Positions 2,299 to 24,037 of a stretch of 24,037 nt of DNA are shown here, piece after piece. Within the stretch, counting starts at the first letter, position 1, and each line of letters opens with the position of its first letter. Under the pieces are notes generated by a model. That model was given only the letters and a program-made list of their open reading frames with translations. It was not told the origin of the DNA and did not search any database. The stretch spans positions 1-24,037 of IMG/VR virus record IMGVR_UViG_3300035698_007224; one strand, 5' to 3'. The position numbers were made by a program, and so were the translations under genes. The DNA comes from a virus.

Positions 2299-3389
2299 TA
2301 CTCGTACCTCTTCTTTCGTTTCAGAGCACAGGCTTCTTCGATATCGTTCCAAGTCCTGCCAACCAACTTCTGAAGTTGTTTTTCCAGCCCCTTCTCTTCA
2401 ATCTCATCCACCAGCTTCTTGATTGTTCCTTTGAATTTGAATTCAGGTGCGTCGATTTTGTTCCCATTCTTGACCAATATCCCCTCTGAGATCAGATAAT
2501 TGATGCAGCTCTCAATGTCATCAATCCCGTAGGAAGGATAGATTGGCATCAGGACTTCGGGTTCTTTTCCCGTGATACGGTTCTTCTTTATTTTGACCTT
2601 GATCTCCGTACCGATCTTGCGGGGCTTCCCTTTTACTGTTTTCTTGATAGCTCCTTCTACAGAGCTCCACATTTCCACAGTGCAGTAGAATCGGAGAGCA
2701 TGACCACCACTGCGGGTCTTCTTCTCGAATCCGAATCCAATGTTGTCCCGCGTCTGATTGATGATGATCAGAATGGATCCCGACCTGGACAGAGGACCGA
2801 GAAGCTTCCGGATGCCCGAGGAGTTCTTCTTGGCTTTGCCATCGGTGAAGCTCCCAGAAGCGTCTTTCCCAGCTCTGGAAGCTTTCTTGTGTTCGTCAAA
2901 CTTGTCGATCTCTTCCTCTGAGGTCAAGGCGTCCATAGAATCCAGGACATAGATGAAGGGTCTGCCGTCTTGAATTGCGTCATCCACATGGTAGTAGAAG
3001 TCCTCAATTTGCTCACTGAAGACCGGATCTCCAGAGTCTTTGTTTACGGAGGGAGGTTCGATCTTGTCCACTGTCTTTTTTCCGAACAGCTTCTCGATGT
3101 CTATCAAGCATCCCTTCTCCGAATTATCGTAGATGAGCCGGTGGTCTTTGAAGTTGGGATTTCGTGCCGCCTCGGCAAAGCAGGTGATTGACAAGAAAGT
3201 CTTGCCACTCTTGCTGTCACCGATCAGAATGTAGTAGTGACCTTTCAGGAATCCTCCAGCGGGGTTCTGACTACATGCCAGGTTGAGCAGAGTGGACCCC
3301 GTGCTGAGGAGTTCGTTGGGGTCAATTTCTTTGGCTTCGGGTGTCTTCTCTTCCGCTGCCTCTTTGATCTCATCCGTTTTCTTGGACAT
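2298..3389 (-). CDS. RecA/UvsX-like recombinase
   Basis: This 363-residue protein starts at ATG 3389 behind AAGGAG; the longer frame to 3455 has only a GTG and no ribosome site. Walker A is GDSKSGKT at residues 57-64. Walker B is FIYVLDSMD near residue 135. LIIINQTRDNIG followed by RSGGHALRFY resembles the loop 2 and DNA-binding region of RecA and UvsX. RecA-family proteins form ATP-dependent filaments on single-stranded DNA and drive strand exchange. The length is close to RecA and shorter than T4 UvsX. The gene follows the SSB and mediator-like genes, the usual recombination neighbourhood. A Lys/Glu-rich N-terminal stretch precedes the core and a basic tail ends the protein (KRKKRYE). Confidence 0.85.
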   Translation of the reverse strand: MSKKTDEIKEAAEEKTPEAKEIDPNELLSTGSTLLNLACSQNPAGGFLKGHYYILIGDSKSGKTFLSITCFAEAARNPNFKDHRLIYDNSEKGCLIDIEKLFGKKTVDKIEPPSVNKDSGDPVFSEQIEDFYYHVDDAIQDGRPFIYVLDSMDALTSEEEIDKFDEHKKASRAGKDASGSFTDGKAKKNSSGIRKLLGPLSRSGSILIIINQTRDNIGFGFEKKTRSGGHALRFYCTVEMWSSVEGAIKKTVKGKPRKIGTEIKVKIKKNRITGKEPEVLMPIYPSYGIDDIESCINYLISEGILVKNGNKIDAPEFKFKGTIKKLVDEIEEKGLEKQLQKLVGRTWNDIEEACALKRKKRYE

Positions 3390-7232: not shown

Positions 7233-7460
7233 TTATGCTTGTAGATCCCTTCTTCTTCGTTCTTCTGGTTTATCCTTTTCTCTTATTCTTCTCTCTTGTT
7301 CTTCTTCCAAACATTCCAAACACCATAACTTTTTAGCTTTAGTAAGTGCATGACAGTCAGTACATGTGCCCCTATTCCATTCTTTTTCATTTCGCTCGGC
7401 ATTTAGTAGGTATGCCAAAACCCCGCTACTCAGATATTTGATGTCGTCGAATTTACCCAT
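7233..7460 (-). CDS. Small zinc-finger-like protein, 75 aa
   Basis: ATG 7460 overlaps the polymerase TGA and follows AAGGAGG with 7-base spacing. Two CxxC pairs, CTDC and CLEC, are 12 residues apart in the middle of the protein and probably bind one zinc. The C-terminal third is a highly charged helix (EEEQERRIREKDKPEERRRR). Such proteins often bind nucleic acid or another protein. No family recognised. Coupling to the polymerase gene suggests a related role. Confidence 0.7.
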   Translation of the reverse strand: MGKFDDIKYLSSGVLAYLLNAERNEKEWNRGTCTDCHALTKAKKLWCLECLEEEQERRIREKDKPEERRRRDLQA

Positions 7461-8890
7461 CAAATTTCCTCCTTTTCATACCAGGACCCATCAATAGGAG
7501 CCACTTCCACCTCTACCTCGAAGGGGACAATGATCCATCTCCAATGTTCCAGGATCTCTTCGGTCATGATCTTCCGAGCCATCGCAATGTAATCCTCCAA
7601 TTCATCCGGGTGAACATCGGCGACAACAGAGTCATGAATCTGCCCGACGATGCAGGACTTCTTGTCTGCCAGCCATGCATTCAGTCTGATGAGGCACCAA
7701 AGCAGACAGTGGAAAGCTGAACCCTGGACAGCATAGTTGATGACCTCGTTCCGTTTCATGTATCCAGAATAACGGAAGCCTGTCAGAGAATCGAAGGAAC
7801 CGTTTGCCTGATACTTTGCATACCATTTCTTCTTCCAAGCTGTATAAACGGGGAAGCGGTTTTCCCAGAAGTCCTTTTCCACATTCTTGATGTGGTGTTC
7901 AAAAGTCCCTGGGATTGTCTCCTCCTTGGGATTGCAAGCACCCAAAAGACTGATCCCAACACTCTCCAGATGTTCTTTCAGAGGAATGCCTGAGACTGTT
8001 TTCAGATTCATCCCGTCTATGGATGACCAGAGGTTCTTGGCACATGTCAGATAGTAGTCACCATAGAACTGAGGAAAGACGAACTTGTTTTTCCCACAGT
8101 AGCGAATGTCTCGGGTTACTTCTTCAATTGGGAGTTTGTAGCATTGCATAGCCATGTCACGGTGCATGTCTTTGGTTTTGTCTTTGATGTATGAAAGCAT
8201 GTTTGGGTCTTTATGGAAACAGCAAGCTACTGAAACTTCGATGCCAGAAAAATCAATCTCCACCAACTGTTGTCCTTTCCTCGGAATGAAGGCTCTCCGA
8301 ATGAGCTTCTTGATTGTTGGTTCTCTGACAGGAATATTCTGGAAGTTGGGACTGCTGGAACTACTGCGGAAGGAAATTACCAAGTGAAGGTTGAAGAAGG
8401 GGTGGATGAATCCGTTGACCTCTTCCACCACCAGATTTCTGAGGTAGGTGCTCCGAGCTTTGATGAGCCTCTTGATAGGGAAGTATTGCTGCACAAACGG
8501 GATGTCCAAAATTTCCAGGGCTTCTACACTCGTGGCGGGGTCCCCCTTGCCTGTGAAGATCTCAGGGGTGAATCCCCACTCATTGAACAGCATATCTGCC
8601 AACTGTTTTGTGGAAGTCAGGTTGAACTTCTTGCGGTACTTCGCTTTCCACTCCCTCACTTCTTTGGTTTGTTCGATCTCTTCTTTGAGGTAGTTGATCT
8701 TCTTCTTGGTCTTTCGCATAGTTTTGGCGACGTATTCCATGTCGATCTTCATGCCGTTGGCTTCAACCTGAGCTAAGGCCAGACTGCCGTCGTGGAGTAG
8801 CTGATAGGCGTCTTGTCTATTCGGACTGCTCTTCAGCTTCTTTTTGTCGAAGTTTGATTGCTTCTCTGTTTGTGTCAAGACTATCGGCAT
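7460..8890 (-). CDS. Family A DNA polymerase core without exonuclease domain
   Basis: This 476-residue protein starts at ATG 8890 behind AAAGGAAAAAA, with an alternative TTG at 8914. It begins almost at the polymerase fold (AYQLLHDGSLALAQVEANG, residues 28-46). SSPNFQNIP is at 179-187, motif A IDFSGIE at 212-218 (catalytic D213), motif B RYCGKNKFVFPQFYG at 263-277, and motif C QIHDSV at 417-422 (D420). These acidic residues bind the two metal ions for nucleotide addition. The usual 3'-5' exonuclease domain is missing here and is coded separately at 10763-11971, fused to a uracil glycosylase. The protein is therefore one half of a split replicase. It overlaps the previous gene by 74 bases. Confidence 0.92.
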   Translation of the reverse strand: MPIVLTQTEKQSNFDKKKLKSSPNRQDAYQLLHDGSLALAQVEANGMKIDMEYVAKTMRKTKKKINYLKEEIEQTKEVREWKAKYRKKFNLTSTKQLADMLFNEWGFTPEIFTGKGDPATSVEALEILDIPFVQQYFPIKRLIKARSTYLRNLVVEEVNGFIHPFFNLHLVISFRSSSSSPNFQNIPVREPTIKKLIRRAFIPRKGQQLVEIDFSGIEVSVACCFHKDPNMLSYIKDKTKDMHRDMAMQCYKLPIEEVTRDIRYCGKNKFVFPQFYGDYYLTCAKNLWSSIDGMNLKTVSGIPLKEHLESVGISLLGACNPKEETIPGTFEHHIKNVEKDFWENRFPVYTAWKKKWYAKYQANGSFDSLTGFRYSGYMKRNEVINYAVQGSAFHCLLWCLIRLNAWLADKKSCIVGQIHDSVVADVHPDELEDYIAMARKIMTEEILEHWRWIIVPFEVEVEVAPIDGSWYEKEEI

Positions 8891-9128
8891 TTTTTTCCTT
8901 TCCTGCCTTTTCAAAGTCAGTCAAGTCAATGGTCTTCCAATCGTATCGTTTTGCTTCGGTGTCTAGTACTTTTTTGAGTTTCTCTTTGGCTTCTTCTTCT
9001 GACTCACACACAGCTATCAATTCCCAGTATTCAAATGGTTTGCCAGGCCCTTTCCATGTTCTTTTCCATTTTACTTCCCACCTAATGCCATTTGTGCGTA
9101 TTTGGAACTTACTTTTTAGATTGGTCAT
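8817..9128 (-). CDS. Hypothetical charged protein, 103 aa
   Basis: ATG 9128 lies inside the end of the previous gene (20-base overlap) with AAGGA-type sequence upstream. The first half looks like a small beta fold (KFQIRTNGIRWEVKWKR, YWELIAVCESEEEA), a layout seen in many small phage proteins. The second half is charged and helical. Its last 74 bases overlap the polymerase start. No function can be assigned. Confidence 0.65.
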   Translation of the reverse strand: MTNLKSKFQIRTNGIRWEVKWKRTWKGPGKPFEYWELIAVCESEEEAKEKLKKVLDTEAKRYDWKTIDLTDFEKAGKEKNADSLDTNREAIKLRQKEAEEQSE

Positions 9129-10762: not shown

Positions 10763-11971
10763 CTATTCCCCTTTGAATGGATAACCCATTTCTCTCATCT
10801 GCTGCACAGCCACACGGTATTCCAACAAGCTATCGAGCCCGTTGTAGAGCAGCAGATCGTCTTCGTCCAGCTCTCGAATTCGGTTGAGTTCGTTTGCCGA
10901 TGGAGCCTCGAAATATGACTTGACATGTTGATTATAGTCCACCACCCCGAATCGAATGTAGCTTTGGAATTTGATCGACGTGATTCGCTTCCGATTGTCC
11001 AAGATGTGAGCAGACAACATTGTGTCCCACCACCACCCCTTGACCTTCATCCCCATCTTAGCCATTGTCCAGCGTTCTTCAAACTTCATGTTGCTTGCAA
11101 TCTTCTTGATCCTTCCTGTCTTGAGAATCGGAATCAGGGCTTCTGTAGTAGCGTCCGTCATCAGAAAGGCTATGGTCTCTTTGCCATTGTGACAGATGGA
11201 ACAGCTCACGATTTCCTGCTTGTCTGAATCAGGCTTCAGTCCAGTGGTTTCATAGTCGAAGGCTATCGTGCCTCCAGCTTTTTTGTAGCCTTCCATCCGG
11301 CTGACAGCATCCTCCTCAGACAGGATTTCGATTTCCTTTTCCTCATCTGGGATTTCTTCGTAAGGCTTGCCCTTGAGTTGCAAAGCTGCTTCCAGATGGG
11401 CGTGGAATATCTTCTCCAGGATGGGGTCTTCTTCACGGTCCAGGTAGGCAGGATGATAGGTGGGACACAGCCACGCATTGAACTTACGGCTTGGGATGTG
11501 CCATCCCACCCATTTGTTGAGAGGCTTGATGTCATCTGTCCATTCACAACCGATTACGCTGGAGACAGCACAGGCTCCGAGCAGCAGAATGATATCAGGC
11601 TGAAAGCTTTTGATCTCCTTCAGGATGTTGGGTCTGCAAGCCTCAATCTTTTCTGGGCTTGGTGTTTCGTTCTTCGGTGGGTGACAGATGATTGCATTGG
11701 TCTTTCGACAGTCCTTGTCCAGATTGATCTTCAGGGATCTGAGATGTTCTCGAAGAAGCTCCCCACATTTCCCGATTAGTTGAGTGCCTTGTCGGTCCTC
11801 TTCTTCACCAGGAGCTTCGGCAATAATCAGGATCTTCTTCTTCCCTTCCCCTGTTGGTCCCATCTTAGGGGAGAGGCATCCCTTATGAAGTCCACAAGCC
11901 CCACACTTCGGTATGTTGGAAGGCTCTCGTTTGGATGTGATTATGCTCTCTTTGAAGAATCCTTTAGCCAT
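10763..11971 (-). CDS. Uracil-DNA glycosylase fused to 3'-5' exonuclease (split polymerase subunit)
   Basis: This 402-residue protein has two domains. Residues 20-195 are a family 4-like uracil-DNA glycosylase: CGAC at 23-26, AEAPGEEED at 51-59, C96 and C112 complete a probable 4Fe-4S site, and HPAYLDR starts at 173. Residues 230-395 are a DnaQ-like proofreading exonuclease: FDYET (D239, E241), SNMKFEE at 293-299, WWDTM (D316) and YNGLD (Y376, D380). Together with the polymerase core at 7460-8890 this rebuilds the UDG-exonuclease-polymerase order I recall from SPO1-type replicases, here split into two genes. The protein could remove uracil and misincorporated bases near the replication fork. 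ATG 11971 overlaps the upstream stop. Confidence 0.88.
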   Translation of the reverse strand: MAKGFFKESIITSKREPSNIPKCGACGLHKGCLSPKMGPTGEGKKKILIIAEAPGEEEDRQGTQLIGKCGELLREHLRSLKINLDKDCRKTNAIICHPPKNETPSPEKIEACRPNILKEIKSFQPDIILLLGACAVSSVIGCEWTDDIKPLNKWVGWHIPSRKFNAWLCPTYHPAYLDREEDPILEKIFHAHLEAALQLKGKPYEEIPDEEKEIEILSEEDAVSRMEGYKKAGGTIAFDYETTGLKPDSDKQEIVSCSICHNGKETIAFLMTDATTEALIPILKTGRIKKIASNMKFEERWTMAKMGMKVKGWWWDTMLSAHILDNRKRITSIKFQSYIRFGVVDYNQHVKSYFEAPSANELNRIRELDEDDLLLYNGLDSLLEYRVAVQQMREMGYPFKGE

Positions 11972-14452: not shown

Positions 14453-15124
14453 TTAGGCCTGTTCATATCCTAATTTTGCTAGAAAGTCCAGCATCTCTTT
14501 ATCATCTCTGATCTTGTCTTTCAATTCCTGACTCATCTCTGTCTTCCACCTGCCACCACATTGTTTGAACGGGCTATTGATCTGCCACGTTCTGAAATCC
14601 TCATGACTCGTTCTTGGTGGTTCTTCGTCTTGGATCTCTCCTCTGTTAATCAAAGCCTTTCGCAGATGGTTCTCAGTTACGATCTCTGGAAAAAAGCTCA
14701 ACCCACAAAAACCAAAAACCCTTTTCAAGACCGTGTGCTCAGAATCAAACAAACTCTCGTATCGCACAACGATAACATTGTCTTTCGTTGCAGCGTGTTC
14801 CAGCAATCTTGTGTTCTGTTTGATGTACTCTCTTCTGAACTCTTCATATGTTGTGTCAAGCCCTCGTTCTTCCATACCCAGAAGAATGTCATGAATGTCT
14901 CGATAGACACCAACAATCAAATAGCCCTCTGGCCATGTTTTATACACAGTTGTCACTTTGCACACGAAAGCCTTTTCGTTTGTGAATCCTTTTGGTCTTG
15001 ATCTAATGCAAATACATTCGGTTGAAACATCCCAAACATCAGGATGATTTCCTATGAGCTTTCTGAGGATCGATGTCCCAGAATGAGGAACTCCTGTTAC
15101 CAAGATTCTTGTGGGTTCACTCAT
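14453..15124 (-). CDS. Sulfotransferase-like P-loop protein
   Basis: The 223-residue product begins MSEPTRILVTGVPHSGTSIL; the GVPHSGTS loop matches the PAPS 5'-phosphosulfate loop of sulfotransferases. GVYRDIHDILLGMEERG and VVRYESLFDSE occupy the positions of the 3'-phosphate-binding and following motifs. It lacks a signal peptide, so it would act in the cytoplasm. Family members move sulfate from PAPS to hydroxyl or amino groups of sugars, lipids or proteins. A phage copy could change host surface glycans or a nucleotide-linked sugar; the substrate is unknown. ATG 15124 follows AGGTG; a GTG at 15130 is the alternative start. Confidence 0.68.
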   Translation of the reverse strand: MSEPTRILVTGVPHSGTSILRKLIGNHPDVWDVSTECICIRSRPKGFTNEKAFVCKVTTVYKTWPEGYLIVGVYRDIHDILLGMEERGLDTTYEEFRREYIKQNTRLLEHAATKDNVIVVRYESLFDSEHTVLKRVFGFCGLSFFPEIVTENHLRKALINRGEIQDEEPPRTSHEDFRTWQINSPFKQCGGRWKTEMSQELKDKIRDDKEMLDFLAKLGYEQA

Positions 15125-15130
15125 CTGCAC

Positions 15131-15960: not shown

Positions 15961-15999
15961 GTATATCGAAATATCTGAGGTCATTCTCAAGGTTATTTC
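15961..15999 (-). promoter_or_regulatory. Promoter-like motif, copy C
   Basis: This copy overlaps the stop codon of the primase-helicase gene (15993) and is identical to copy B over 39 bases. TTGAGA is at 15985-15990 and GATATA at 15962-15967, 17 bases apart. It would drive the genes from 15928 downward. Confidence 0.62.
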
Positions 16000-17951
16000 T
16001 CTTTTTTTAGGAAAGTTTTTATCTTCGGACCTGTGATAATTCTTCCCATTTCCCTATAGCTGGGTCCCATTTCTCCGAACTGAAAAGCAATTTTTGCCCC
16101 TGTGGCCGTTCCATCTCGGCATTTGTCAATCGTGATAATCCGGTTTGGGGTCATCTCTTCCTCTTCATCCTCCTTGTTCATCACCCGTACTTCTTTGAAA
16201 TTGAAGTCCACTGTCAGGGCAGCGAAGGACAGATCCCCTATCCTTTTAGAGCCTTCCATAGAATAGACACTCCCGTCTTTGGAAGCTGTCTTGGCTTTAT
16301 GAACCACAAGGACGATGGTGCTGTAGGAGCAGTTGGCAATCCCAATCAGTGATCTCACGAAGGATGCCTGAGCTCGCCATTCCTCTTTCCCTTCGAAATC
16401 AATCTGGGCCAGAGGGTCGATGACAATCAATCTACACCCTTCGTCACTTCGGTCCTCTGCCCATTCCAGGACATCATCAGCATGAACAGCCTTAACCTTC
16501 TTCCCCTTGATGGTGGGATTCCGATGAATCCCGCTCCCCCATTCTGTGATGAGATCCCCATATTCAGCCTGGATGCGTTCAAGAATCTTGTGCCTCTTCC
16601 GTCCGGAGAGTCTGTCAAAATGCTGTGCTATTTTCCATTCGGCTGAAACTAGGGCCACCATCCTTCGAATGTGATAGGCTCGGGTATCTTCCATAGGTAG
16701 GTATGCCCATTGGAGTTGGGCATTTGCTGTCGCTTGGCACAGATGGAGGGATAGATAGCTCTTGCTGGTCCCGGGGAGGCCACTTATGGCCACAAGCTTC
16801 CCTGGCATCAGCATGGGGACGGATTCTCTCAGCCCGTCCCACGGGAGCCTGACAAGCCTTTTGGTGCCATCCAACTCCTTGCGGATGTCCTCAATCACAT
16901 CGTCTTGGTCGTCGTGGTCCTCATCATCGTCCTCTTCTGGGTCCTCCTCCTGCTTTCGCTTCTTTCGCCTTTCCCGTCTTTCCCCCTCCTGATTTTCTTC
17001 CTCCTCCCGGACTTTGGAACCTTTCTCTCCACTGGCATATTTTGTTGCACTGTTAAGACATGTTACAAGTTCTGATTCAGAGAGGGCAGGAGAGCAACAG
17101 GATTTATTCCAGGCCACAAGGACATGCGCAGCCTCATTCTCTGAGAGGTCAAAATCGACGAGAGCGAGGCAAGCAACCCTATATGCGGCATTGTTCCGGT
17201 TGCCTTCCTTAGTGGCAATTGTCTCGACATAGGCAGAAGCTTGTTTTAAGGCCTCCGCACGACCCCGTGGTATCTTACCACCTAAATCCAATCGAAACGT
17301 CGTGGTGGCGTCTGGAAGGGCTTCCAGCGGCACTGTAGCACGGAGTTCATCCATGGTATAGACGCGATTTTCGTTATGCTTGACGATCCGGCATTCTGCC
17401 ACAGGTTCCTTCTGGTTCATATATCCGGGAAGTCGGAGTACTCTGGATGGGTTCCGGACTGATTTGTCGAACAGTTCTTCCTCCCGCTCATCGTCCAGAT
17501 TGTTCTTTTCGAGAGCCACAGCCACATCATAGACGATCTGCTTGAGGGACCAGGGATTGACTTTCTCGGTGAGACGCCAGTAGAAGTGGGTGCCATGGCC
17601 AGAATCCACCACCAAGGACGGGGGAGGCAGATTGATGCCATGGGCCATTCTCTTGGCTTCCAGATATTTGATATGGTCGAAATCACACCAGACCACACGT
17701 CCAGGTAGGCATTCGTCATCAGTGCTGCTCCCGTCCTTCTCCCGAGGCAAGACCCCAGCGAATATATTGTAACCCTTTACGTTCATCTTGGTTAGCTTGC
17801 GTTGGATGTCTGGTAGGTCTTCAGCAAACATCCAGAAGGATTTTGGGAATAGATCTTCCACACCTTTCAGCGGAAAGCACCGGACCTCAATCAAATCCTC
17901 CGGATCCCACAGGATTGAGGCATAGATTTGGAGTTCATTCTGGTCTGTCAC
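15993..17951 (-). CDS. Primase-helicase fusion (AEP primase + RecA-like helicase)
   Basis: This 652-residue protein has an archaeo-eukaryotic-type primase domain at residues 60-210: VVWCDFDH with D90 and D92 (metal ligands), SGHGTH at 117-122, and SRVLRLPGYMNQ at 169-180. A PriCT-like helical segment follows (RNNAAYRVACLALVDFDLS, 252-270, then WNKSCCSPALSESEL). A charged linker rich in D, E, K and R spans about 310-355. The C-terminal RepA/DnaB-like ATPase has GLPGTSKS at 391-398, LIVIDPLA with D512, and VLVVHKAK as the sensor histidine. It would prime and unwind DNA at the fork. ATG 17951 overlaps the initiator stop, and the pair recalls lambda O-P order. Confidence 0.85.
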   Translation of the reverse strand: MTDQNELQIYASILWDPEDLIEVRCFPLKGVEDLFPKSFWMFAEDLPDIQRKLTKMNVKGYNIFAGVLPREKDGSSTDDECLPGRVVWCDFDHIKYLEAKRMAHGINLPPPSLVVDSGHGTHFYWRLTEKVNPWSLKQIVYDVAVALEKNNLDDEREEELFDKSVRNPSRVLRLPGYMNQKEPVAECRIVKHNENRVYTMDELRATVPLEALPDATTTFRLDLGGKIPRGRAEALKQASAYVETIATKEGNRNNAAYRVACLALVDFDLSENEAAHVLVAWNKSCCSPALSESELVTCLNSATKYASGEKGSKVREEEENQEGERRERRKKRKQEEDPEEDDDEDHDDQDDVIEDIRKELDGTKRLVRLPWDGLRESVPMLMPGKLVAISGLPGTSKSYLSLHLCQATANAQLQWAYLPMEDTRAYHIRRMVALVSAEWKIAQHFDRLSGRKRHKILERIQAEYGDLITEWGSGIHRNPTIKGKKVKAVHADDVLEWAEDRSDEGCRLIVIDPLAQIDFEGKEEWRAQASFVRSLIGIANCSYSTIVLVVHKAKTASKDGSVYSMEGSKRIGDLSFAALTVDFNFKEVRVMNKEDEEEEMTPNRIITIDKCRDGTATGAKIAFQFGEMGPSYREMGRIITGPKIKTFLKKEK

Positions 17952-18757
17952 AGTTGGGGCTCCTTCGTGTTGAGCATATCATCGTCAAAATTCTCCTTCG
18001 TAAAATCTTCCCAATACCCATCACGACCGAAGAAATTGCCCATTCCTTTGACATATTGGCCATCAGGATCCTCTTCTCCTGCATCAGCCGATTCTGCTTT
18101 CTTGAGACGGAGGTAGTGGTCAGCCGCTATTTTGATATCCATTGGGGGGAGGCCACTCTTCAGTAACTTGGCCACATTCTTCTTTGCTCTGGAAGTAGAT
18201 GGATCTCGGGATTTAATCGTCTTCCACCACTCCCGCATTTCGGCCACCAATTCAGCCGCCAGTTTGTCGAAATCAGGCTTGTTTTTTGTGGGTGTGTTTT
18301 CTGGTAGATCAAAAAAGCCTCTGGACGAACGCGTAGTTTCTACCTTTCTTTTCTTTATTTCATCATATATGTAAGGGGGGGTGGCGCTTTTCCGCGTGGG
18401 TTGTACGCGCTTTTCCGCGTGGGGGGGTGGCGCTTTTCCGCGTGGGGGGGTGGCGCTTTTCCGCGTGGGTACTGGGTCACATTTATCCGCAATGTGTATC
18501 CTTCTCCTATACTCATTTTCAGGGTCTATTTCCATGGTGATATACCCACGGTTTCGTAGGCTTCTCAGCCACTCCGATATCCGTCGTGGTTTTGTTTCCA
18601 TTGCTTCAGCCAACCCCCCGTTGGTGGCCCAGCAATACCCTGATTTTTTTGATAGGGTTATCAGAAATCCCAATAGACACGCTTCAGTATTCGACACTTC
18701 CTTGTCCAGTATTGCTATAGTTGGTACAGCAACAAATGGGATCATTTCAAGTTTCAC
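17948..18757 (-). CDS. Replication initiator with winged-helix N-terminus
   Basis: This 269-residue protein starts at GTG 18757, with ATG 18745 as alternative; neither has a good ribosome site, and the upstream stop is 11 bases away, so coupling is likely. Residues 18-85 look like a winged helix-turn-helix (EACLLGFLITLSKKSGYCWA, then LAEAMETKPRRISEWLRSLRNRGYI), as in lambda O-type initiators. Residues 97-130 are encoded by the iteron array and contain TRKSATPP twice. The C-terminal part (AELVAEMREWWKTIK; ADHYLRLKKAE) would contact the helicase. In lambda the initiator binds iterons inside its own gene, and the same arrangement is seen here. Confidence 0.7.
   Translation of the reverse strand: MKLEMIPFVAVPTIAILDKEVSNTEACLLGFLITLSKKSGYCWATNGGLAEAMETKPRRISEWLRSLRNRGYITMEIDPENEYRRRIHIADKCDPVPTRKSATPPRGKAPPPHAEKRVQPTRKSATPPYIYDEIKKRKVETTRSSRGFFDLPENTPTKNKPDFDKLAAELVAEMREWWKTIKSRDPSTSRAKKNVAKLLKSGLPPMDIKIAADHYLRLKKAESADAGEEDPDGQYVKGMGNFFGRDGYWEDFTKENFDDDMLNTKEPQL
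18338..18374 (-). other. AT-rich stretch beside the iterons
   Basis: Bases 18341-18374 contain only 7 G/C out of 34 and directly flank the iteron array. Such a stretch is the expected position for a DNA-unwinding element. It is also coding (YIYDEIKKRKVE), so codon composition may partly explain it. Confidence 0.5.
18381..18472 (-). repeat. Four 23-bp iterons, candidate replication origin
   Basis: Four direct repeats start at 18381, 18404, 18427 and 18450, each exactly 23 bases apart. They share GCGCTTTTCCGCGTGGG; three begin GTG, the second TAC. Since 23 is not a multiple of three, copies are read in different frames, and only copies 1 and 4 give the same peptide (TRKSATPP). Conservation is therefore at the DNA level. 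Location in the initiator gene next to an AT-rich stretch supports an origin. Confidence 0.75.
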
Positions 18758-18768
18758 GTTTTCGGCCT

Positions 18769-19002
18769 TTAGTCAAGTGGCTTTGTTTGGGTTTTGAAAC
18801 TTTTTATTTTTGGTCTAATTGTTGTGGGATGGGATGATTTTTGTTCTTCCCCATCCTCCTTTGCCTCTTTCATGGCAAGCATTCGCAGATAGGTACTCCT
18901 TTCGAGTCCTATTTGTTCTGCCCTTCGTGTTATCAGGTCAAACTCACTGTTATTTACTTTGACTCTGATCTCTTTGTCCCGCCTTCTATCCTCTTGTTTC
19001 AT
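18769..19002 (-). CDS. Ribbon-helix-helix DNA-binding protein, 77 aa
   Basis: The N-terminal KEIRVKVNNSEFDLITRRAEQIG followed by LERSTYLRMLAMKEA is a ribbon-helix-helix fold like MobC/NikA and Arc-type regulators: a short beta strand followed by two helices. The tail (KSSHPTTIRPKIKSFKTQT) is basic and probably flexible. ATG 19002 follows AAGGGA and sits about 11 bases downstream of the predicted transcription start. It lies directly before the initiator gene and behind a consensus promoter carrying a dyad at -35, so autoregulation of the replication operon is likely; this is inference. Confidence 0.7.
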   Translation of the reverse strand: MKQEDRRRDKEIRVKVNNSEFDLITRRAEQIGLERSTYLRMLAMKEAKEDGEEQKSSHPTTIRPKIKSFKTQTKPLD

Positions 19003-19019
19003 AATGTTCCCTTTTTGTT

Positions 19020-19048
19020 ATTATAATATGCTCCTTTTGTGTTGTCAA
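19020..19048 (-). promoter_or_regulatory. Consensus sigma-70 promoter
   Basis: On the minus strand TTGACA (19043-19048), a 17-base spacer and TATAAT (19020-19025) match the bacterial sigma-70 consensus exactly. Transcription would start near 19013, giving an about 11-base leader before ATG 19002. It would drive the ribbon-helix-helix protein, initiator and primase-helicase genes using unmodified host RNA polymerase. Confidence 0.85.
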
Positions 19049-19062
19049 GTGCCAATGCACTT
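19047..19062. promoter_or_regulatory. Putative operator dyad at -35
   Basis: AAGTGC-CAAT-GCACTT is a perfect inverted repeat with 6-base arms. Two bases overlap the -35 element, so a bound protein would block RNA polymerase. Either ribbon-helix-helix protein coded beside it (18769-19002 or 19113-19295) could be the binder. Confidence 0.5.
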
Positions 19063-19112
19063 TTTCCAACCATTATTGGTCGGTCTTCCCCCGATGAGAT
19101 GCCTGGGGATTG

Positions 19113-19295
19113 CTACTTCTGGCCAAGGATTTCCTCAGCATGGGTCACGAAGAAATCCGTGACAACCTTGTACATGGACTTCCCCTCCACGGCACAGGCT
19201 GCCTTGAATCGGTCCTTGACCTTTTTCTGGACCCTGTGGATCATGAATGTGGTTCCTTTCGGTGCCCTTTTTCTCTGTGTCTTTTTCTTAGCCAT
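19113..19295 (-). CDS. Small ribbon-helix-helix-like protein, 60 aa
   Basis: ATG 19295 follows AAGGAG. A basic N-terminus (MAKKKTQRKRAPKG) is followed by TTFMIHRVQKKVKDRFKAAC and KSMYKVVTDFFVTHAEEI, a strand plus two helices typical of CopG/Arc-type regulators or antitoxins. No toxin gene is adjacent. It lies just upstream of the consensus promoter and may regulate it. The frame stays open after its TAG, which I judge to be chance. Confidence 0.6.
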   Translation of the reverse strand: MAKKKTQRKRAPKGTTFMIHRVQKKVKDRFKAACAVEGKSMYKVVTDFFVTHAEEILGQK

Positions 19296-23672: not shown

Positions 23673-24037
23673 TCCGTTTCCTTTCTTTCTGTTTTTTCAG
23701 AATTCAAACACCCATTCTCAAACCAATACCAAGTATCTGTGGTAATAGTCTCACCGTTGATTTTTTGTCCTGGACAGACAGACCAGATTTTCTTGATGTA
23801 GCTGTTGTTGTTATTATCCAGTCTCCAATCGACTATGACAATCCATGATTTTTTGTTACGGGTCATGGCTTTTGCTTTATAGCCAAGAGCACATGCAATG
23901 CTCTGTTCCCCAGATACGCTGGCCGCTGATCGGTCGCCCGTGTTGCTGGCCGCTGAATAGTCACCCGTGTTGCTGGCCTCTGATTGGTAGCCCGTGTTGC
24001 TGGCCGCTGAATAGTTGCCTGTGTTGCTGGCCGCTGA
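23669..24037 (-). CDS. DUF7666-like repeat protein (N-terminus cut by window edge)
   Basis: The frame is open to the right edge, giving 122 visible residues; the start is outside. It begins with nine-residue repeats of the SAASNTGDY type, then SIACALGYKAKA, and a globular end with SWIVIVDWR, IKKIWSVCPGQKINGET and TDTWYWFENG. From memory this repeat-plus-WIVxxxW plan is the DUF7666 family, common in phages and bacterial genomes and without known function. The repeats may stack as a beta helix. An internal ATG at 23866 would yield only the C-terminal domain. TGA 23669 overlaps the next start. Confidence 0.72.
   Translation of the reverse strand, partial: SAASNTGNYSAASNTGYQSEASNTGDYSAASNTGDRSAASVSGEQSIACALGYKAKAMTRNKKSWIVIVDWRLDNNNNSYIKKIWSVCPGQKINGETITTDTWYWFENGCLNSEKTERKETE
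23918..24037 (-). repeat. 27-bp tandem repeat coding nine-residue units
   Basis: At least four units with a 27-base period are visible, each coding S-A-A-S-N-T-G-x-x variants. The period is a multiple of three and the frame is kept, so the repeat is protein-level. It continues past the window edge. Confidence 0.85.

Follow-up and report, generated by a model that had tools for sequence, protein, structure and literature searches.

An iteron array inside a winged-helix initiator gene as a likely replication origin of an uncultivated virus

Four copies of a short sequence recur inside the apparent replication initiator gene of an uncultivated virus, and the question they raise is whether they mark the place where that virus begins to copy its DNA. 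The window, i.e., the whole stretch of DNA analyzed here, comprises all 24,037 bases of IMG/VR record IMGVR_UViG_3300035698_007224 and is probably a fragment of a viral genome. The rest of the record has genes for, among others, a family A polymerase, a UDG-exonuclease, a sliding clamp, a clamp loader, a RecA-like protein, and helicases. We consider it highly likely that these repeats form the part of a replication origin to which the initiator binds, and that this origin lies within the gene of the initiator itself (Table 1).

Table 1. Features of the initiator locus (window coordinates)
Feature	Position	Strand	Basis or description
Replication initiator gene, 269 aa, with the proposed origin embedded	17948..18757	-	ORF; HTH_36 and PHROG matches
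Winged-helix DNA-binding domain, aa 9-90	18488..18733	-	AlphaFold2, Foldseek
Disordered linker, aa 91-160, encoded by the array and AT-rich element	18278..18487	-	pLDDT 44-58
Iteron array	18384..18469	-	Four copies of CCCACGCGGAAAAGCGC, 23-bp period; 23-bp unit ACGCGGAAAAGCGCCACCCCCCC (gene strand)
AT-rich element, proposed DNA unwinding element	18335..18374	-	TTACATATATGATGAAATAAAGAAAAGAAAGGTAG on gene strand; adjoins last iteron
C-terminal helical region, aa 163-224	18086..18271	-	Predicted helices, moderate to low confidence
Primase-helicase gene	15993..17951	-	PriCT_1, AAA_25, DnaB_C (Pfam); phrog_19 DnaB-like helicase

Several other properties of the record were noted. The DNA polymerase is divided between two genes, with the UDG and 3'-5' exonuclease part at 7460-8914 and the polymerase part at 10763-11971; both align to neighbouring stretches of a single PHROG profile (phrog_17), and the parts are also separately encoded in related viruses (L008-L010 and L012). 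A sulfotransferase-like gene (14453-15130) lies within the replication gene cluster. Near one contig end, about 18 copies of a 24-bp tandem repeat (94-552) are open in frames of both strands, giving Asn/Pro/Arg-rich or Gly/Phe/Arg-rich repeat peptides, and at the other a 27-bp tandem repeat (23918-24037) reaches past the contig end, where the assembly may have broken. GC skew, suggested by a sequence-only reading of this DNA as a check on the origin, did not change sign near the array; in a 24-kb fragment with its main genes on one strand it carries no information.

The repeat search placed the four copies at start-to-start spacings of 23, 23, and 23, and TRF reported 4.1 copies of period 23 at 18375-18469 (score 155). 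The invariant 17-mer CCCACGCGGAAAAGCGC is found on the minus strand at 18384-18400, 18407-18423, 18430-18446, and 18453-18469. The sequence-only reading was thus right about four 23-base repeats at 23-base spacing, but its span of 18381-18472 was a few bases off, the true extent being 18375 (or, for the 17-mers, 18384) to 18469. The array scored 42, whereas none of 40 dinucleotide shuffles of the gene scored above 12, and no further copy of the core with fewer than three mismatches was observed elsewhere in the window. As expected of an in-gene iteron origin, at least three directly repeated sites are present inside the initiator's own gene. Units 1, 2, and 4 (gene order) are identical across 23 bp, while unit 3 has five changed positions, all inside a 6-bp stretch of the spacer; the probability of such clustering by chance is about 0.003, and one single event could also explain it. 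When A-tract-centred inverted repeats with perfect 4-bp arms were looked for, the outcome was mixed, many iterons being imperfect palindromes; as the window iteron, moreover, has arms of just 3 bp (GCG/CGC), a palindromic character is suggested only weakly.

Translation passes through the four units in frames 0, 2, 1, and 0 and gives PTRKSATP, PPRGKAPP, PHAEKRVQ, and PTRKSATP, i.e., three different peptides. It had been argued from this that conservation must be for the DNA. The peptides do differ, but the 23-bp period alone is insufficient to prove selection at the DNA level, since the same pattern would result from a recent tandem duplication, and comparative data are needed for that reason. 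Duplication is also the basis of a rival explanation, namely, that a 23-bp unit was recently multiplied by slippage in a disordered linker and forms a neutral minisatellite with no role in replication. The long C run in the unit and the disorder of the linker would suit such an origin, as would the identity of three of the four units over 23 bp, which we counted against the origin reading since recent duplication would give it equally; the confinement of the changes in unit 3 to the spacer, on the other hand, argues against it.

We then consider the protein. Its match to Pfam HTH_36 (PF13730; E 1.5e-7) scored 31.5 bits, above the curated cut-off of 25, and a PHROG of replication initiation (phrog_270) matched with E 1.6e-14. 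O-like PHROG matches were weak (phrog_678, E 1.3e-9); both kinds of PHROG match span most of the protein. The window protein had no Pfam match to the lambda O family (PF04492, Phage_rep_O) at E 0.1 or to RepA_N (PF06970). By family, the window initiator is an HTH_36 initiator, which bears out the earlier assignment of the gene. In the AlphaFold2 model, residues 11-90 have a pLDDT of 93-97, with helices at 13-17, 23-36, 46-53, and 57-69 and strands at 73-77 and 85-89, and further helices are predicted at 163-182, 186-200, and 205-224. The array corresponds to approximately aa 97-126, inside the disordered stretch, so in this model the sites lie in the linker after the DNA-binding domain, as they should in an in-gene iteron origin. 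A PDB sequence search gave no match; Foldseek returned MarR-type winged helices and the plasmid initiator chains 4pql, 4pt7, and 5kbj. The C-terminal region may be the part that interacts with the helicase.

Directly upstream of the initiator, at 18769-19295, are two small ribbon-helix-helix proteins (one NikA-like, the other RHH/ParG-like). These genes could form a regulatory module, and plasmid iteron arrays can also control copy number, so the array might bind the initiator for autoregulation, as a transcription roadblock, or for incompatibility control, instead of or beside the start of replication. We regard this as quite unlikely, given that the array is located within the gene rather than at a promoter and, like the repeats of the lambda and SPP1 origins (PMC7466680, PMC6316719), has an AT-rich tract coupled to it.

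An AT-rich flank had also been proposed from the letters, and it is present on one side of the array only, downstream with respect to the gene. AT content reaches 83% over the 30 bp at 18345-18374, a value that some other 30-mers in the window equal and none exceeds. By composition, this is the adjacent AT-rich element of an in-gene iteron origin, with a putative role in melting. A primase-helicase gene does follow, as had been read, and its GTG start overlaps the TGA stop of the initiator (GTGA). Direct repeats occur at packaging or partition sites of some phages and plasmids, and a site for another process of this kind is a further alternative. It is the least probable one, barely credible in our view, since the gene bearing the array is a replication initiator with a primase-helicase next to it, and neither a terminase nor a ParA/ParB family was detected among the window genes scanned.

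Comparative evidence had to come from more distant genes: in the viral contigs searched, no close homologues of the initiator or of the primase-helicase were found. A long pattern, ACGCGGAAAAGCGCNACNC, matched three contigs, all without arrays, and these matches were taken as chance. A search with the paired core GCGGAAAAGC recovered other initiator genes that have this core at 23-bp spacing, among them one in L034 (GTGCGGAAAAGCGCAC, with AT-rich DNA behind it) and one, present in several viral contigs, for a replication-type protein of 328 aa. Three CGGAAAA motifs at 21-24-bp spacing occurred in at least 120 stretches. Among the matches listed, about 100 other phage contigs had CGGAAAA at 22/23-bp spacing, almost always in an initiator-like ORF and on its sense strand. 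The 17-base core had been described as unlike any known iteron; it does differ from that of lambda, but it is not unique. Separately, arrays of a 22-bp unit (GGTAAGTTACTGGCGGAAAAGC) were observed in two contigs of one metagenome (L025, 11-174; L033, 11868-11965), with no ORF >100 aa across either.

Spacing was analyzed for 117 CGGAAAA arrays among the matches listed. In 104 it was not divisible by three (13 were divisible), and 91 of these 104 had the sense orientation of the longest ORF that overlaps them. Conversely, 59 of 75 arrays of a reversed-core control had spacings divisible by three, as coding repeats should. The reversed core keeps AAAA and itself recovers several initiator arrays, so it is not a clean negative control; many of its 16 exceptions lie in proteins resembling winged-helix initiators by eye. 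Ordinary coding minisatellites keep frame, and the difference between 59/75 and 13/117 argues against that explanation for the window array.

We also analyzed homologues picked without regard to repeats. Protein similarity to the window initiator gave 17 phage and plasmid records, some of them near-duplicates, of which 13 contained at least three in-gene repeats at aa 89-108, spaced 19-26 bp and usually followed by AT-rich DNA; 15 scored above every shuffle. The iteron arms vary in this set (e.g., GACAAAAATGTC and CACGAAAAATCGTG), and the A-tract centre recurs. Lambda O, the positive control for the repeat detector, was found with spacings of 20, 24, and 23. A second set of 23 was fetched from bacterial genomes with the winged-helix domain alone, using a query alignment built from the winged-helix part of iteron-bearing genes. 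With a similar detector, 17 of the 23 had at least three copies, four more had two strict copies, and two had none.

The sequence-only reading had asked whether the repeats stay conserved at synonymous sites, and in homologous families they do, with differences per codon of about 0.05 across the array and AT tract versus 0.31-0.44 in the flanks. Within the second set, the values in Pseudomonas were 0.437 for the domain, 0.053 for the array and AT tract, and 0.306 for the C-terminus, and in Halomonadaceae 0.366, 0.052, and 0.442, respectively (rank-test p ~1e-6 or smaller, a guide only since the sequences are related). Judged by these comparisons, the in-gene array and AT tract are conserved at the DNA level in homologous families. 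A neutral minisatellite is hard to reconcile with homologous initiators that carry arrays at the same place with low synonymous change, or with an AT-rich element positioned as in the class, and we consider it improbable, if less so than the other alternatives.

To describe that class, we compared 44 genes, consisting of the window initiator and 43 that were pattern-fetched. Pfam assigned 22 to HTH_36, five to Phage_rep_O, and one to RepA_N, and 34 matched phrog_428 (replication initiation); the window protein aligned with many members over the winged helix at 25-31% identity. Across the 42 distinct genes, AT content climbs to about 0.7 over the 40 bp that directly follow the last iteron, beyond which it falls back to the gene average; 93-95% of these genes have the peak at this place. 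The AT-rich element of the window occupies the matching position. It is conceivable, though we would stop short of calling it probable, that a single layout is common to several families of winged-helix phage initiators, with A-tract-centred iterons, very often CGGAAAA, phased at 22/23 bp in the DNA that encodes the linker and some 40 bp of AT-rich DNA after them. The origins of hundreds of uncultivated phages could then be read from sequence, and one example would be the window array, whose initiator is coupled to a primase-helicase in a virus that encodes its own polymerase, clamp, and clamp loader. No description of this shared layout was found in the open-licence papers searched.

Also counted against the origin reading were three viruses with the same clamp loader and polymerase (L015, L017, and L018), in which a winged-helix protein is present and such an array is not. 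The objection is tempered by the two of these winged-helix proteins that were compared with the window initiator: where their domains align, identity is only 20-32%, and their gene context is different. In L015 and L017 a separate primase-like gene lies beside the winged-helix gene. Because these viruses carry another winged-helix protein without the repeats, the initiation module appears exchangeable among viruses sharing the replisome. In L017, where in-gene iterons are absent, about ten copies of a 33-bp repeat (2837-3162) just after the winged-helix gene are a candidate alternative origin.

We propose the following mechanism for the embedded origin. The N-terminal winged-helix domain (aa 9-90) would bind the four A-tract-centred iterons, whose cores (GCG-GAAAAG-CGC) stand about two helical turns apart, and the bound proteins would assemble into a compact nucleoprotein complex. 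Melting would follow in the AT-rich tract on the 18335-18374 side, and the C-terminal part would recruit the virus's own primase-helicase, encoded by the next gene, to begin copying. The linker DNA is free to serve as an origin, since the peptide it encodes, being disordered, accepts any of the three reading frames. For the window virus, we infer each of these steps (binding, melting, and helicase recruitment) and the use of the origin; binding of the iterons by the winged-helix domain is supported by homology and conservation, and melting and recruitment are drawn from lambda and SPP1 (PMC7466680, PMC6316719).

Together, these results point to a likely origin and initiator for an uncultivated virus encoding much of its own replisome. 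Phage lambda and some plasmids were already known to have the in-gene iteron layout, and the comparison here shows it to be common among phages. Out-of-frame 22/23-bp repeats with an AT-rich tract inside a winged-helix gene mark candidate origins across many phages and would allow origin annotation in metagenomic viruses, where experiments are impossible.

Among known systems, the lambda-like character proposed from the sequence was right for the layout: iterons in the linker, an adjoining AT-rich element, and a helicase gene downstream. In lambda, ori lies in gene O, with four 18-bp repeats (spaced 20, 24, and 23) in mid gene after the DNA-binding domain, an AT-rich tract on the 3' side, as in the window, and a helicase-related gene next (PMC7466680). 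However, the lambda iteron (TCCCTCAAAACGAGGGA) differs in sequence, the next gene encodes a loader of the host helicase rather than a primase-helicase, and the window protein, compared with lambda O, is without a Phage_rep_O match. SPP1 carries the oriL repeats and an AT-rich unwinding element inside gene 38, which encodes gp38 (PMC6316719); it differs in having a second origin and a separate helicase loader. In staphylococcal phage 80alpha, ORF20 cannot be complemented in trans, which suggests that an ori is embedded in it (PMC5499656). The pSK41-type RepA_N plasmid initiator has an N-terminal DNA-binding domain and four binding boxes centrally inside rep, and the linker peptide encoded by ori is dispensable (PMC5703833). 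The likeness extends to the single RepA_N match among the 44 genes and to the plasmid initiator structures among the Foldseek matches, although pSK41 is a plasmid whose RepA_N C-terminus interacts with DnaG primase, whereas the window protein is viral and assigned by Pfam to HTH_36. Also comparable are HTH_36 initiators of other phages, such as those of Leuconostoc phage LLC-1, Lactobacillus phage PMBT4, Cellulophaga phage phi39:1, and Pseudomonas prophage-type loci, which have a homologous winged helix and, like the window, in-gene iterons at aa 89-108 spaced 21-24 and followed by an AT-rich tract; their iteron arms differ, and the next gene, where annotated, is usually a DnaB-like helicase or loader instead of a fused primase-helicase. 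By analogy, the window array very probably works like lambda ori, SPP1 oriL, and pSK41 ori.
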